64,000 nucleotides of DNA, taken from Cellulosimicrobium terreum (GTDB taxonomy: Bacteria > Actinomycetota > Actinomycetes > Actinomycetales > Cellulomonadaceae). Below the pieces are notes generated by a model. It was not told the DNA's origin. It made no database searches and saw only the letters and a program-made list of their open reading frames with translations. This document shows positions 47,432 through 53,941 of this stretch, in pieces. Location of the stretch: NCBI GenBank assembly GCA_014803435.1, contig JACYFD010000002.1:597026-661025 (forward strand), in the 5' to 3' direction. A program made the translations under genes and the position numbers. Position 1 is the first letter of the stretch; each line of letters begins with the position of its first letter.

Positions 47432-47584
47432 TCCACCGCCCCGCCTCGCCGTCGTCTCGCCGTCCTCTCGACTGTCCGTAGCTCGACTGGGGCCTTGCGG
47501 ACAGCGCTGTCGGCGGGCAGGGTGGTGGGGACGTCCGGCAGCGTCGCCGACAGGTCCGCGGAACGACACGACGAGGTGAATCCC

Positions 47585-49117
47585 GTGAACGACGCGTCAC
47601 GTACGACGATGCGCATGCCCCGAATCTCCCGTACCCGTACCCGTGGACGACGGCGGCGGATCCCTGCTGCGTTCGCCGCACTCGGTGTGGTGCTGACGTC
47701 CGGGGTGGTGGGTGTGGCGGGCGCCGCGCCGGCCGCCGCCGCGACGGTCTGCAACATCCACTGCGACGCGCGCGACCCCGCGCTCGCGACGGGGGACCGC
47801 ACGCCCGTGAGCGCCACGGCCTCCGGGCGGACCGTCGTCCTGCACCTGGCCGACTCCGACCCGATGGGCTGGGCGTCGATCGAGGGCGGTCGGGGCGGCG
47901 ACGAGGTGTGGCTCGACCGGTCGTTCGACGGCGGCACGACCTGGGACGACGACGGCCGGCTCGGTCTGACGAGCGTCCCGGCCGGCGGGTCCGGATGGCG
48001 CACGCAGATGTACAACAACGACGACTGGGCGAACCTCGGCGTCGGGGCGCTGCGGGCCTGCGGGCGCGCCACGGACACGGGGGCGATCGCGTGCACGTCG
48101 TGGGCGCGGACCACGTGGAACGCGGGCGACCGCACCACGGCGGCGGCCACCGCGATGATGGCGACGTACGACCGCGACACCGGGCTGTTCAACGGCAACG
48201 ACTGGTGGACGTCGGCGCCCGCGCTCTCGGCCGTGATCGAGAACGCGCGCGTCACCGGGATGGGCAGCTACCGGTACGCGCTGGGCCGGACCTACGACCG
48301 CAACGTGAACCGCCAGGACGGGCAGAACGAGGGCCAGTTCCGCAACGAGTACATCGACGACACGGGCTGGTGGGCCATGGTGTGGCTCGACGCCTACGAC
48401 CTCACGGGCGAGCAGCGCTACCTCGACACCGCCAGGGCCGCGGCCGACCACATGCACGCGTACTGGGACGGCGCGTGCGGTGGCGGCGTCTACTGGAAGA
48501 CCGACCGGGCCAACAAGGCGTCGATCGCCAACGTCCTCTACCTGCAGGTCAACGCCTCGCTGCACAACCGTCTCCCCGGCGACTCCACGTACCTCGCGCG
48601 GGCGCAGGCCGAGTGGGACTGGTTCCGCGGGAGCGGCCTGATCCGTTCCGACGGGCTCGTCGTCGACGGGCTCGCCTCGTCCGGCTGCGCCCCGGGCGGC
48701 ACGACGTTCACGTACAACCAGGGCGTCCTGGTGTCGGGGCTGGTCGAGCTGCACGAGGCCACGGGCGACGGGTCGCTGCTCGACCAGGCCCGGCGCACCG
48801 CGGACGCCATGACCCGACCGGGCGGTGGGCTGACGACGTCCGCCGGCGTGCTGCGCGACCCGGCCGAGGGCTGGGACACGTGCGCCGACGACGGCGCGTC
48901 GTTCAAGGCCGGTGCGATCCGTGGTCTCGCCGAGCTCGACCGCGCGCTCCCGGACCGGCCGTACGAGGCCTACCTCGACCGGCAGGCGAGCACGGCCCAC
49001 GCGAACGCGCGCAACGCGCTCGACCAGTACGGGTTCGTGTGGTCCGGGCCGGCGCCGGGGGACACGGGGACCGGGTGCCAGAGCAGCGCGCTCGCGGCGA
49101 TGAACGCGGCGCACTGA
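47585..49117 (+). CDS. secreted GH76 glycosidase (alpha-1,6-mannanase-like)
   Basis: 510 residues with an Arg-rich signal peptide (RRRRIPAAFAALGVVLTSGVV, cleavage after APAAAA near residue 57). A single Asp-box-like motif SFDGGTTWDDDG near 120 precedes the catalytic alpha/alpha barrel. The adjacent Asp pair of GH76 is in EYIDDTGWWAMVWLDAYDLTG near 258; another conserved stretch is GGVYWKTDRANKASIAN. Substrates would be alpha-1,6-mannan of yeast walls or actinobacterial glycans. GTG 47585 is favoured over ATG 47609. No cell-wall or carbohydrate-binding domain is present. Confidence 0.88.
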   Translation: MNDASRTTMRMPRISRTRTRGRRRRIPAAFAALGVVLTSGVVGVAGAAPAAAATVCNIHCDARDPALATGDRTPVSATASGRTVVLHLADSDPMGWASIEGGRGGDEVWLDRSFDGGTTWDDDGRLGLTSVPAGGSGWRTQMYNNDDWANLGVGALRACGRATDTGAIACTSWARTTWNAGDRTTAAATAMMATYDRDTGLFNGNDWWTSAPALSAVIENARVTGMGSYRYALGRTYDRNVNRQDGQNEGQFRNEYIDDTGWWAMVWLDAYDLTGEQRYLDTARAAADHMHAYWDGACGGGVYWKTDRANKASIANVLYLQVNASLHNRLPGDSTYLARAQAEWDWFRGSGLIRSDGLVVDGLASSGCAPGGTTFTYNQGVLVSGLVELHEATGDGSLLDQARRTADAMTRPGGGLTTSAGVLRDPAEGWDTCADDGASFKAGAIRGLAELDRALPDRPYEAYLDRQASTAHANARNALDQYGFVWSGPAPGDTGTGCQSSALAAMNAAH

Positions 49118-49136: not shown

Positions 49137-49164
49137 CCATCCGACCGGGCGTCGGCGTCGAACC
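49137..49164 (+). promoter_or_regulatory. SigK-type promoter of sigK-rskA
   Basis: CCATCC (49137-49142), exactly 16 bp, CGAACC (49159-49164), identical to the promoters before the MPT83-like gene and dipZ. It gives an untranslated leader of about 100 nt that folds into a hairpin (GTCCCGGAC / GTCCGGGAC, 49171-49189, inside CTCTC...GAGAG). Confidence 0.8.
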
Positions 49165-49271
49165 TCTCTCGTCCCGGACCGTCCGGGACGTGGACGAGAG
49201 GTCGTTCCTGTCGAGCTCGAGGTCGGCGCGTGCCGCTGCGAGCGGACGGGCCCGTGCGGCAGACTGTCCGG

Positions 49272-49850
49272 GTGCCACCACCCGTGACGACGAACCCGTC
49301 GGGTGCCGTCGATGCCGCCCTGGCTGCGTGCGCCGACGGCGACCCCGCCTCGTTCACGCCCGTGTACGACGCGCTCGCGCCCGTCGCGTACGGCACCTGC
49401 CTCGGTGTCCTGCGCGACGCGGACCACGCGGCCGAGGTGATGCAGGAGGTGATGGTCGAGGTGTGGCAGACGGCAGCACGTTTCGACGCCGCGCGCGGGT
49501 CCGCGCGCACCTACGTCGCGACCCTCGCGCGCCGTCGCGCCGTCGACCGGGTGCGGGCGGAGCAGGCACGCCGCAACCGGGACCAGCGCGACCTCGACAC
49601 GAGCCTGGCGACCGCGCCGCGCGACGTCGTCGCCGACGACGTCGAGCGCATGCTCGAGGGCGCGGCCGTGCGCCGCTGCCTCGGGTCGCTGACCGACACG
49701 CAGCGCGAGGCGGTCGTCGAGGCGTACTACGGGGGCTACACCTACCGCGAGGTGGCGGACCGGCTCGATGCCGCGCTGCCGACCGTCAAGTCGCGGATCC
49801 GCGACGGCCTGATCCGGCTGCGCGACTGCCTGGGGGTGAACCGTGGCTGA
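49272..49850 (+). CDS. sigK: ECF sigma factor SigK
   Basis: 192 residues. Region 2 has DADHAAEVMQEVMVEVWQTA and TYVATLARRRAVDRVRAEQ; region 4 has LTDTQREAVVEAYYGGYTYREVADRLDAALPTVKSRIRDGL. Cysteines C136 and C186 are 50 apart, the spacing and location of the redox-active pair C133/C183 in mycobacterial SigK. GTG 49272 is chosen because it gives a short N-terminus like that protein; GTG 49230 is an alternative. It overlaps rskA by 8 bp. A SigK-type promoter precedes it, implying autoregulation. Confidence 0.9.
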   Translation: MPPPVTTNPSGAVDAALAACADGDPASFTPVYDALAPVAYGTCLGVLRDADHAAEVMQEVMVEVWQTAARFDAARGSARTYVATLARRRAVDRVRAEQARRNRDQRDLDTSLATAPRDVVADDVERMLEGAAVRRCLGSLTDTQREAVVEAYYGGYTYREVADRLDAALPTVKSRIRDGLIRLRDCLGVNRG

Positions 49851-50595
49851 CGACGACATCCGCTCCGACGTCCACGACCTGCTGCCGGCGTACGCGCTCG
49901 ACGCCGTCGACGACCTGGAGCGTCGCGCCGTCGAGCGCCTGCTGGCGTCTGACCCTGACGCGCGCCGCGAGCTGGACGAGTACCGCGACGTGGTCTCGGC
50001 GTTCGCCGTGGATCACGAGCCGCCGGCGTCGGTGCGCGACGCCGTCCTCGCCCGCGTGGCCGACACCCCGCAGCTCGGTGCGCAGTCGACGTCGCGTGCG
50101 ACGGCCGGCCGGTCGGCCGGTGAACCCGTGCACGCGGCGTCCGCACGGGCGCGGGTGCGGTGGGGGCTCGTCGCCGCCGCCGCGGCCGTCGTGCTGGCGA
50201 TCGGTGTGCCGACGACCGTCGCCGTGCGCGCGACGCAGGAGCAGTCGCGCCTCCAGGCGCAGGCGGACACGGTGAGCCGGATGCTCGCCGACCCGTCGGC
50301 GACGATCGTGCGGGGCGACGTCACGGGCGGTGGCGAGGCGTCCGTGCTGGTCGCGGGCGACGACTTCCTCTTCCGGGCGACGGACCTGCCGGACGCGGGC
50401 GACGACCAGGACTACCAGCTCTGGGTCGTCGACGCCGAGGGCGCCGCGACGTCGGCCGGGGTCCTGTCCGCGGAGGGCGGGACCGCCGAACAGCTCGTCG
50501 AGGACGTCCCGGGCGCCGCCGTCGCGGTGACCGTGGAGCCCGAGGGCGGGTCGGAGCAGCCGACGACCGACCCGATCGTCGTCCTGGGCGCCTGA
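49843..50595 (+). CDS. rskA: anti-sigma K factor RskA
   Basis: Membrane anti-sigma factor holding SigK inactive. 250 residues: cytoplasmic anti-sigma domain (DVHDLLPAYALDAVDDLERRAVERLLA), one membrane helix at 107-128 (GLVAAAAAVVLAIGVPTTVAV) and an extracellular RskA C-terminal domain with FRATDLPDAGDDQDYQLWVVD. Release in mycobacteria needs proteolysis by Rip1-type proteases. GTG 49843 lies inside sigK, so the two are coupled. The stop is followed by a truncated gene, not another sigK partner. Confidence 0.93.
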   Translation: MADDDIRSDVHDLLPAYALDAVDDLERRAVERLLASDPDARRELDEYRDVVSAFAVDHEPPASVRDAVLARVADTPQLGAQSTSRATAGRSAGEPVHAASARARVRWGLVAAAAAVVLAIGVPTTVAVRATQEQSRLQAQADTVSRMLADPSATIVRGDVTGGGEASVLVAGDDFLFRATDLPDAGDDQDYQLWVVDAEGAATSAGVLSAEGGTAEQLVEDVPGAAVAVTVEPEGGSEQPTTDPIVVLGA

Positions 50596-50634
50596 CGCCG
50601 CTGCAGTCGACCCGGCCCGGCGAGCGGGCCCGCG

Positions 50635-51009
50635 ATCGACAGGAGCTACGCCGACCGGTTCGGGATGACCGTGGTCTCGGCCCGCGTCATGCATCTCGCC
50701 GAGCGACCGGTCGCACGGTTCGACCTCGGGGCGTGGCGCTCCGTCGCCGTCGCCGTCCGTCTCGTCGAGGCGGTACTCACGACGTCCGCCACCGGGCACC
50801 ACGTCGTGTGGGGCGTGTCGCGCAACACGCGCCGCGACGTCGACCTCGGTCCCGGCGAGGCGATCGGGTACCACCTCGTCGACGACGCCGAGTCCTGGGT
50901 TCACGCGCTCCGGGACCTGCCGGCGCCGTCGTCCCCGCACGTGCTCGGAGGGGACTTCACCGAGCCGGGCCACCCGATCGGGGTGGACTGGCGCACCCTC
51001 GGTCTCTGA
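50635..51009 (+). pseudogene. 5'-truncated NAD-dependent sugar epimerase/uronate dehydrogenase remnant
   Basis: The frame starting at IDRSYADRFGMTVVSARVMHL encodes the C-terminal third of an extended SDR protein, from just after the catalytic Tyr region, and ends naturally: VVWGVSRNTRRDVDLGPGEAIGYHLVDDAESW. The Rossmann half and YxxxK motif are missing, and rskA ends 39 bp upstream, so no intact start region exists. An ATG at 50665 could make a 114-residue product. I read it as a deletion remnant between rskA and the MPT83-like gene. Confidence 0.65.
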
Positions 51010-51037
51010 GCACGGCCCGGGAAGACGCGCGACGACG

Positions 51038-51080
51038 ACGGCCGGTCCCGACCCCCCCGGGAGGGGAAGGGACCGGCCGT
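51038..51080 (-). terminator. terminator of the MPT83-like gene
   Basis: Perfect 12-bp arms ACGGCCGGTCCC (51038-51049) and GGGACCGGCCGT (51069-51080), 22 bp beyond the fasciclin gene stop on the minus strand; it could also end the epimerase remnant. Confidence 0.55.
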
Positions 51081-51102
51081 CGGCCGTCCACGGGCAGGAT
51101 CG

Positions 51103-51807
51103 TCACATGCTCGGCATGAGCACCGAGTCGACGAGGTAGACGGTCGCGTTCTGCGTCATGACGCCGCCACAGATCACCTTGGCGTCGTTCACCATGAGGT
51201 CGTCGCCGGAGCCGGTGACCTCGACGGTGCCGCCCTCGACGGTCGTCTGCTCGCCGACCACCTGGTCGGGCGTGAGCTGCCCGGGCACCACGTGGTAGGT
51301 GAGGATCTTCGTGAGCGTGTCGGTGTCGGTCTTGAGCGAGTCGATCGTCTCGGGGTCGATCGCCGCGAACGCGTCGTCGACGGGTGCGAAGACGGTGAAC
51401 TCGTCACCGTTGAGCGTGTCGACGAGGTCGACGTCCGGGTTGATCCCGCCGCTCACCGCGGCGGTGAGCTGGGTGAGGATCGGGTTGTTCGAGGCCGCGA
51501 CCGCGACCGGGTCGGTCGACATGCCGGTGATGGAGCCGGCGCCGTCGGGCACCTGCTCCGCGTAGGCCTCGCAGCCGGCCCCGACCAGGTTGGCGGCGGG
51601 GTCCATCGCCATGTCCTCGGACCCCTCCGACTCCTGCGCCATGTCGTCGTCGGTCATCGAGTCGTCGGCCATGTCGTCGGTGGACTCCTGGGACTCGGTC
51701 GTCGAGTCCGCTCCGGAGTCGGTGTCGGAGCTGCAGGCGGACAGGCCGAGGACGGCCAGGGTGGCGATGCCGGCCACCGCGTACGAGGTGCGGGTTCGAG
51801 CGTTCAT
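51103..51807 (-). CDS. MPT70/MPT83-like fasciclin-domain lipoprotein
   Basis: 234 residues: lipobox LSAC (C25), an acidic Asp/Met/Ser linker and one FAS1 domain with [20 protein letters not shown] and [18 protein letters not shown]. Motifs [29 protein letters not shown] and [23 protein letters not shown] closely follow the mycobacterial MPT70/MPT83 antigens, including the two Cys expected to form a disulfide. ATG 51807 follows GAGGAG. Divergent from dipZ; each has its own SigK-type promoter. Probably adhesive or envelope-associated. Confidence 0.92.
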
Positions 51808-51860
51808 CGGTCTCTCCTCGAAGGTCGTCGCCCCACCGGTCTGCGAGGCGTCTCGGGCAG

Positions 51861-51888
51861 GGTTCGGAGAGCTCGACGAGACGGATGG
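51861..51888 (-). promoter_or_regulatory. SigK-type promoter of the MPT83-like gene
   Basis: On the minus strand CCATCC (51888-51883), 16 bp, CGAACC (51866-51861). Start of transcription near 51854, 47 nt before the ATG. Confidence 0.8.
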
Positions 51889-51924
51889 GTGCTGATCGGG
51901 ACACGTTCCGACCGGGGTCGCCAC

Positions 51925-51952
51925 CCATCCGGGGCGGGCGTCGCGTCGAACC
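51925..51952 (+). promoter_or_regulatory. SigK-type promoter of dipZ
   Basis: CCATCC (51925-51930), 16 bp, CGAACC (51947-51952), ending 6 nt before the dipZ ATG, so the dipZ mRNA should be leaderless. Confidence 0.8.
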
Positions 51953-51958
51953 GTGCCC

Positions 51959-53941
51959 ATGGAGACGCTCATCCTGATCGGACTGCTCGGTGGCCTCATC
52001 ACCGGGATCTCGCCGTGCATCCTCCCGATGCTCCCCGTCATCTTCTTCGCGGGGGGCGTGCAGGGTGCCCGCAGCGCGCCCGACGCCGCCCGGAAGGGTC
52101 CCGCGCCCGACGCCGAGCCCGCCCGCGAGGGGAGCGTCTCGCCCTCGCTGTTCGCCGGGCTCCCGCAGGCGGTCGGTGCCGGCGGTCGCTCGCGCACCGT
52201 GTCGGCTCGTCCCTCGCGTGGCGGGACCGTCGCGATCGACCTGTCCGCGGACGACGACGCGGCGGACGCGCCGTCGTCGGTCTCGACGCCGCCCACCACG
52301 ACGGGAACCACCCGGTCGCAGCGGCGCCAGGGTCGGCGCTCCCTGCGGCCCTACCTCGTGATCGCCGGCCTCGTCCTGAGCTTCAGCGTCTTCACCCTCC
52401 TCGGCTCGCTCCTGCTGACGGCGCTCGGGCTGCCGCAGGACCTGCTGCGCTGGTCGGGGATCGTGCTCCTGGTCCTCATCGGTGTCGGCATGATCGTCCC
52501 GAGGTTCGAGGAGGTGCTGGAGCGGCCGTTCCAGCGCATCGCGGCGCTGGGCGCACGCAAGGGCGCAGCCCGGCAGGACCGTGGCGCGTTCGTCCTCGGC
52601 CTGGGCCTCGGCGTCCTGTACGTCCCGTGCGCCGGCCCGGTGCTCGCCGCGATCACGGTCGCGGGCGCGACGGGGAACATCGGGCCCGGGACCGTCGCGC
52701 TCACCGTCTCCTTCGCCGTCGGTGCCGCGATCCCGTTGCTCGTCTTCGCGCTCGCCGGCCGCCGGGTCGCCGAGCGGGTCAAGGGCTTCCAGAAGCACAC
52801 GCGCGGGATCCGGATCACGGGCGGGATCGTCATGATCGCGCTCGCCGGCGCGCTCGCGCTGAACCTTCCGGCCGCGCTCCAGCGCGCGCTGCCCGACTAC
52901 ACCGGCGCCCTGCAGCAGCAGGTCGACGAGAACGACACCGTCCGTGAGGCGCTCGACCTCGGCGGCCTCGTCACCGACGAGAACCGCGAGCTGTCCAACT
53001 GCTCCAACGGCGCCTCCGAGCTCGAGGACTGCGGCACCGCGCCCGCGATCCGCGGCATCGACACCTGGCTCAACACGCCCGACGGCGCCGCGCTCGACCT
53101 CGAGGGGCTGCGCGGGAAGGTCGTGCTCGTCGACTTCTGGACCTACTCGTGCATCAACTGCCAGCGGGCCATCCCGCACGTCAACGCCTGGTACGAGCAG
53201 TACCAGGACGTCGGTGAGGGCTTCGAGGTGATCGGCGTGCACACCCCCGAGTTCGCGTTCGAGCGCGAGACGCGCAACGTGGTCGCCGGCGCCGAGGACC
53301 TCGGCGTCACGTACCCGGTGGCCCAGGACAACTCCTACGCGACGTGGACGGCGTACCGGAACCGGTACTGGCCCGCGCAGTACCTGATCGACGCGGACGG
53401 GACCGTGCGGCACATCCGGTTCGGCGAGGGCGGCTACGCGGACACCGAGAACCTCGTGCGCGAGCTGCTCGCGGACGCGAACCCGGGAGTCGAGCTGCCC
53501 GAGCCGACCTCCGTCGGCGACGCGACCCCCGCGGGCGAGACGACCCCCGAGACGTACTTCTCCATCAAGCGCGTCGTGAACTACTCCGGGGAGCCGACGT
53601 ACGCCGCGGGAGAGCAGGAGTTCACGCTCACCGACGACCAGCCGCAGGACACGTTCTCGCTCGGTGGCGGGTGGGACGTGGACTTCCAGGGCGCGACGGC
53701 GGTGTCCGACGACGCGCAGGTCCGCCTCGCGTACCGGTCCACCGACGTGTTCGCCGTCCTGGGCGGCGAGGGCACCGTGACGGCGCGCGTGACGGCCGAC
53801 GGCCGCACGACCGAGCAGGAGATCGACGTCTCGGGCAACCCGACGCTCTATCCGGTGCTCGAGGGCGACGGCCCCACGCAGGGGACCGTCGAGCTCGACG
53901 TCCCGGCAGGGGTCCAGGTGTTCACCGCGACCTTCGGATGA
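51959..53941 (+). CDS. dipZ: DipZ: CcdA-thioredoxin fusion protein
   Basis: Moves reducing power across the membrane and uses it outside. 660 residues: CcdA-like helices with C20 (SPCILPM) and C224 (YVPCAGP), the redox pair; a long hydrophilic insert (about 40-125) between the first helices; an extracellular thioredoxin-like domain with C398-I-N-C401 in [10 protein letters not shown]; and a C-terminal beta domain with [18 protein letters not shown] as in mycobacterial DipZ. ATG 51959 is leaderless behind the SigK-type promoter. In M. tuberculosis dipZ lies between mpt70 and mpt83 in the SigK regulon. Confidence 0.93.

Follow-up and report, generated by a model that had tools for sequence, protein, structure and literature searches.

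A stretch of 64,000 nucleotides (nt) of DNA from Cellulosimicrobium terreum, hereafter called the window, contains four neighbouring genes that look orthologous to the SigK-RskA regulon of the Mycobacterium tuberculosis complex. These are sigK, which encodes an extracytoplasmic function (ECF) sigma factor, rskA, which encodes a membrane anti-sigma factor, a gene for a FAS1-domain lipoprotein of the MPT70/83 type, and dipZ, which encodes a membrane protein with a thioredoxin-like part. A predicted promoter of the form CCATCC-N16-CGAACC stands before sigK-rskA, before the FAS1 gene and before dipZ, and three further exact sites lie elsewhere in the genome (Table 1). At a probability of roughly 0.87, we consider that these elements would constitute an autoregulated SigK-RskA module with both local and distal targets in this Cellulosimicrobium-like actinobacterium.

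Table 1. Genes and predicted SigK-type promoters of the locus (window positions) and genes downstream of the distal exact sites
Feature	Position	Strand	Basis
Predicted SigK-type promoter before sigK-rskA	49137..49164	+	exact match; site upstream of sigK in 16/16 near relatives
sigK, ECF sigma factor	49272..49850	+	Pfam Sigma70_r2 and r4; NCBIfam SigK model; 4nqw_A
rskA, membrane anti-sigma factor	49843..50595	+	Pfam RskA_C and RskA_N; NCBIfam anti-sigma model; overlaps sigK end
MPT83-type FAS1 lipoprotein gene, methionine-rich acidic linker	51103..51807	-	Pfam Fasciclin; 1nyo; lipobox LSAC
Predicted SigK-type promoter before FAS1 gene	51861..51888	-	exact match; FAS1 site in 14/14 near relatives with FAS1
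Predicted SigK-type promoter before dipZ	51925..51952	+	exact match; ATG-anchored footprint in 15 sequences
dipZ, CcdA-like membrane part and thioredoxin-like part	51959..53941	+	Pfam DsbD_TM, AhpC-TSA, Thioredoxin_10; 5cyy, 2hyx
copC gene downstream of exact site	L001		Pfam CopC
CHRD gene with LPXTG cell-wall anchor motif, then sortase gene	L005		Pfam
DUF4383 membrane protein gene downstream of exact site	L006		Pfam

The gene identities given in the initial annotation were confirmed, as the closest solved structures of the four products are their M. tuberculosis counterparts, weakly so for RskA. The best solved chain for SigK was M. tuberculosis SigK, 4nqw_A (E 2.2e-40, 142 bits; next 76.8), and the alignment with it retains both control cysteines, residues 133 and 183 of the M. 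tuberculosis protein according to the available text of PMC7509140. The NCBIfam SigK model also tops the SigK matches (223.6 bits, next 115.7). The GTG start of sigK is uncertain, with another in-frame GTG at 49230. RskA scored above the Pfam cut-offs for RskA_C (84.3 bits, cut-off 29.4) and RskA_N (28.6, cut-off 27) and above that of the NCBIfam anti-sigma model, and its match to M. tuberculosis RskA (4nqw_B) was weak (E 0.026). In the excerpts available, M. tuberculosis SigK is assigned to ECF18 (PMC7509140) and RskA to AS19-1 (PMC7406223), and the Streptomyces coelicolor protein named SigK is a SigB-type factor that shares only the name (PMC9205884). The FAS1 protein had MPT70 (1nyo) as its best solved match (E 1.5e-55; next 1.8e-26) and carries a lipobox, therefore representing the MPT83 form, which is called ancestral in the available text of PMC7509140. 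One full-length DipZ protein combines DsbD/CcdA-like membrane (PF02683), thioredoxin-like (PF00578) and C-terminal (PF17991) domains, and M. tuberculosis DipZ (5cyy) was its best solved match (E 7.9e-117), with 2hyx also found.

The three sites of the locus agree in both hexamers and in spacer length, as had been claimed, and are the sole matches in the window even when spacers of 14 to 18 nt are allowed. The spacer sequences differ among them, and CCATCC is followed by G in each. Across the 14 contigs of the genome (4.49 Mb) there are six exact sites, all beginning CCATCCG, and none for the reversed pattern; there are eight sites when the final -10 base is left free, and 20 with one mismatch allowed, versus two for the reversed pattern. 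The three exact sites outside the locus are intergenic, at 81 (L001), 48 (L005) and 49 nt (L006) from the likely start codon. Since they stand between genes, the dozens of intragenic matches that the initial annotation had named as the adverse outcome of such a scan are absent.

The sites of the locus are conserved in relatives. A SigK similarity scan returned at least 62 loci, comprising a near set of 16 (L049-L064, the closest among the matches listed) and 46 others (L065-L110). The near set comes from Cellulosimicrobium, Isoptericola, Sanguibacter, Luteimicrobium, Promicromonospora, Krasilnikoviella and Oerskovia, plus one record labelled Sphaerisporangium; FAS1 and dipZ were each found in 14 of its 16 loci within the stretch compared. 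A CCATCC-N15-17-CGAA site lies at most 300 nt upstream of sigK in every near locus, and the background for this test, taken from the same loci, was 33 of 2000 random 300-nt windows. The FAS1 gene is in the same orientation relative to sigK in four near relatives (L049, L051, L063, L064) and in the opposite one in ten others and the window, so it has been flipped between near relatives; its own SigK-type site goes with it either way, in all 14 near relatives that have the gene. One pair differs in how its proteins have diverged: between the window and C. arenosum (L049) SigK is 98% identical, and RskA, FAS1 and DipZ only 82-85%, with DNA identities of 88% for the sigK-rskA block and 83% for dipZ. 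Either strong constraint or local exchange could account for the SigK value.

The site before dipZ could be examined without use of the motif. When the upstream regions of the window and 14 relatives were anchored on the dipZ ATG (51959, conserved in position in relatives; the mechanical open reading frame opens at GTG 51953), CCATCC at -34 to -29 and CGAAC at -12 to -8 emerged in 15 of 15, with one -35 base changed in L051. The spacer is conserved in part, beginning with G in 14 of 15 sequences, and the DNA farther upstream is close to random. The 34 nt that separate the first -35 base from the ATG recur exactly in 30 of 33 loci of a wider set, fetched partly through the motif, the exceptions being L051 with its altered -35 and the Agromyces loci L076 and L091, which have no site. 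If transcription starts 7 nt past the -10 hexamer, the dipZ mRNA would begin at the ATG itself; the dipZ start is thus probably fixed and leaderless.

The regulon had been described as self-contained, a claim that had to be abandoned: half of the exact sites (3 of 6) are outside the locus, and CHRD and DUF4383 genes keep the site in relatives. We fetched 120 stretches around sites, mostly among the matches listed for the family and to a small extent from the genus, hand-chosen and some cut by contig ends, and named the downstream families by Pfam of representatives; most genus sigK-locus sites, several rows of G055, and G122, G052, G092, G148 and G081 were left out by hand. The families recurring downstream, as counts that are not frequencies, were DUF4383 (14), a lipoprotein without Pfam match (12), CHRD (11), sigK (11), small LuxR-type helix-turn-helix proteins (9), DipZ (8), FAS1 (5) and membrane molybdopterin oxidoreductases (3). 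Because these stretches were chosen by motif and by hand, a motif-blind test was made on every DUF4383 and CHRD match, together with 30 CopC matches, from 61 genomes, the window genome's own copC being excluded. CHRD genes had the site in 11 of 12 loci of genomes with sigK, all exact N16 (the exception being the second CHRD gene of G018), and in neither of two loci from genomes without sigK. DUF4383 genes had it in 12 of 23 loci versus one of five; the 12 include two sites with one mismatch and one with N17, and the opposite-strand control gave 2 of 23. By these counts CHRD is a predicted conserved target and DUF4383 a predicted target in part. The corresponding CopC figures were 1/14 and 1/16, and copC was rejected as a conserved target; its exact site is at best particular to this genome.

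These counts bear directly on the proposal of a closed local regulon, in which sigK-rskA, the FAS1 gene and dipZ would be the only targets and the three distal sites would be chance matches. From the hexamer frequencies of the window one would expect about 1.3 exact sites in the whole genome, so that one distal site could indeed be chance, and CopC genes in relatives keep no site; the motif-blind CHRD and DUF4383 results and the recurrence of downstream families among the fetched stretches nevertheless make a closed regulon improbable, and we rejected it.

Other genes following SigK-type sites in relatives include a lipoprotein some 430-450 residues long that matches no Pfam family and is encoded between the site and sigK in other genera (L142, L207 and ten more loci), small single-domain LuxR-type helix-turn-helix proteins (L171, L200, L250 and six more loci), which are perhaps a second regulatory tier, and, in a few relatives, molybdopterin oxidoreductases (L155, L179, L213).

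The presence of sites also follows the presence of sigK. Of 17 genomes of the genus, 13 carry CCATCCG-N15-CGAACC; sigK is present (E <= 1e-20) in exactly these, the remaining four being without any sigK match. In the family, 133 of 150 genomes have at least one CCATCC-N16-CGAAC. Genomes with sigK (n=87) average 4.62 sites and all except one have at least one, the exception, G021, holding sigK only as a partial match with three stops. Genomes without sigK (n=63) average 1.79 sites, 16 having none; for the reversed pattern the means of the two groups are 0.20 and 0.21. The rank-test P of 2e-14 for this difference is overstated because the genomes are related. Conservation and co-occurrence with sigK together support the prediction that the sites are SigK promoters. 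Five genomes without a sigK match (G020, G027, G032, G080, G126) have five to seven sites each. Candidate explanations for sites in such genomes are chance, other sigma factors or a missed sigK, as exemplified by G047, whose contig ends just past the gene preceding the sigK position (L164).

The sites could be real promoters read by another ECF sigma factor besides or instead of SigK, as the average of 1.79 sites in family genomes without sigK, some with five to seven, and the further sigma-type genes of this genome, for example beside the L006 site, would allow. We regard such a reader as hardly probable, because presence of sigK and of sites matches fully in the genus (13/13 and 0/4), the sites flank sigK itself, and SigK sites are described in the available text of PMC7509140 as highly conserved and cross-recognised among Actinobacteria. 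Although each hexamer is common in the window (31 and 77 occurrences, both strands), a chance origin of the three sites in GC-rich DNA has a negligible probability and was rejected, as none of 100 dinucleotide shuffles of the window gave three matches (mean 0.07, maximum 1), 0.0014 exact sites are expected in the 4.8 kb locus, and the ATG-anchored footprint in relatives contradicts it.

Several observations weigh against the proposed module. Among the distant loci L065-L098, the sigK-upstream test found the site in just 8 of 34, and in six of these eight the -10 element reads CGAATG. Genomes without sigK hold 1.79 forward sites against 0.21 reversed ones; some sites must therefore be background or read by other factors, and the reversed pattern is too lenient a control. 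The compared genomes are related, so that the counts are not independent. SigK misses the NCBIfam cut-off of 226 by 2.4 bits, and CopC genes show the same paucity of sites with and without sigK. The CCATCC -35 of M. tuberculosis SigK promoters enters the comparison as general background; the literature search for it gave only a primer (PMC7509140). Finally, all of the regulation is predicted from sequence.

In the module that we propose, RskA would retain SigK until an extracytoplasmic signal frees it. RNA polymerase carrying SigK would then recognise CCATCC-N16-CGAACN before sigK-rskA, the FAS1 gene and dipZ, so that freed SigK would boost its own operon in a positive feedback together with the FAS1 lipoprotein and DipZ, the latter presumably translated from a leaderless mRNA that starts at the ATG. 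SigK may also act distally, on the CHRD/LPXTG gene and the sortase gene that follows it, on the DUF4383 gene and, less surely, on copC. Control of SigK by RskA, both inhibiting and activating, has been shown in mycobacteria and Yersinia (PMC7509140, available text), and by analogy we infer the same for the module of the window.

The module resembles known systems in part. In the M. tuberculosis complex, autoregulation and the mpt70/83 promoters are under SigK control (PMC7509140), sigC is an additional direct target (PMC4821874), and the targets are in two loci according to the passages available from PMC10540498, in agreement with the two distant loci cited in the initial annotation. In the window, sigK, rskA, FAS1 and dipZ instead lie together, the only FAS1 copy has an inverted predicted promoter to itself, and there are distal CHRD/sortase and DUF4383 sites, of which the gene list in the available part of PMC10540498 has none. 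The linked layout that had been noted is present here, but is not new: an mpt83-sigK-rskA cassette of other Actinobacteria and Yersinia with linked genes and a conserved SigK site is in print (PMC7509140, available text), as is the cskE-sigK-dipZ island of Corynebacterium pseudotuberculosis, which links sigK, an anti-sigma gene and dipZ (PMC3078919, available text). Unlike the former cassette, the window locus includes dipZ with its own site. That the linked layout is ancestral is plausible because FAS1 also lies near sigK in six of the 46 other loci (three Agromyces, three Dietzia), dipZ being near it in two (Agromyces). The distal targets, the fixed, probably leaderless dipZ start and the methionine-rich FAS1 linkers are apparently new, a qualification owed to a literature scope of openly licensed papers, mostly titles and abstracts. 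Within it no report of distal targets or a leaderless dipZ was found by title or abstract among the papers listed; Veyrier 2008, reportedly the source for the linked mpt83-sigK-rskA cassette, is outside this scope.

The most speculative part of our proposal concerns the signal, for which we put forward extracytoplasmic oxidation, or extracytoplasmic copper. In the window and 14 relatives, the linker that joins the lipid anchor to the FAS1 domain is acidic and drifts in sequence, and it is rich in methionine: of the 690 residues of the pooled linkers 66 are methionine, one is L/I/V/F/W/Y and none is histidine, and the methionine content of SigK, RskA and DipZ of the window, pooled, is 0.7%. The lipoprotein preceding sigK in other genera, which is unrelated to the FAS1 protein, has N-terminal methionines in 12 of 12 cases, judged by eye. 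An oxidation response is suggested by these linkers together with the hypochlorite-responsive ECF systems BcrS/AbcS (PMC10151825) and Haemophilus influenzae RpoE2 (PMC7907618), whose likeness, from the parts of these papers available, is functional only: an ECF and anti-sigma factor pair whose targets include a peptide rich in methionine or a methionine sulfoxide reductase. Here, unlike in those systems, it is a FAS1 lipoprotein linker that is rich in methionine, and the targets examined in this genome, where no search was aimed at msr genes, included no methionine sulfoxide reductase. SigK might accordingly be an actinobacterial regulator of extracytoplasmic oxidative damage, with lipoproteins bearing sacrificial methionine-rich tails (the FAS1 protein and, in relatives, the one encoded before sigK), DipZ passing reducing power outward and a sortase-linked CHRD refit of the wall, an idea that we hold as tentative and rather doubtful. 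The main alternative is extracellular copper, which the methionine-rich linkers would bind as Cu(I). An exact site stands before copC here, and in G001 a site with its last base changed (one mismatch) precedes a DUF1775-copC pair; in the window genome no site with one mismatch or fewer is seen at that place. Since copC does not belong to the conserved targets, the two species differ in the copC locus used and the linkers are without histidine, we judge copper an unlikely signal.

Two further features border the module. A glycosyl hydrolase family 76 gene (47567-49117, + strand) directly precedes the sigK promoter, with no link to the regulon seen. Between rskA and FAS1, a frame of 114 residues (50665-51009, + strand) had no Pfam or NCBIfam match; we take it for a possible remnant, similar to the end of an NAD-dependent epimerase/dehydrogenase.

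SigK controls major tuberculosis antigens, and an environmental relative lets the regulon and its signal be studied outside pathogens. This organism, whose core module is confined to a single locus and whose promoter model is sharp, with additional predicted targets conserved in the family, offers a study system for that purpose. Full-length actinobacterial dipZ has been held exclusive to pathogens (PMC3078919, available text); its occurrence in the window and in 14 of 16 near relatives of environmental type speaks against that exclusivity. Furthermore, the distal sites suggest that wall-anchored and membrane proteins outside the M. bovis/M. tuberculosis list (PMC10540498, available part) can come under the regulon, and the SigK-type sites before other surface-protein genes in relatives are a lead on the signal sensed. 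The sole SigK signal known in the available text of PMC7509140 is macrophage contact; if the oxidation proposal is true, the induction of the mycobacterial regulon in macrophages would be inherited from a response to oxidants outside the cell in the environment.

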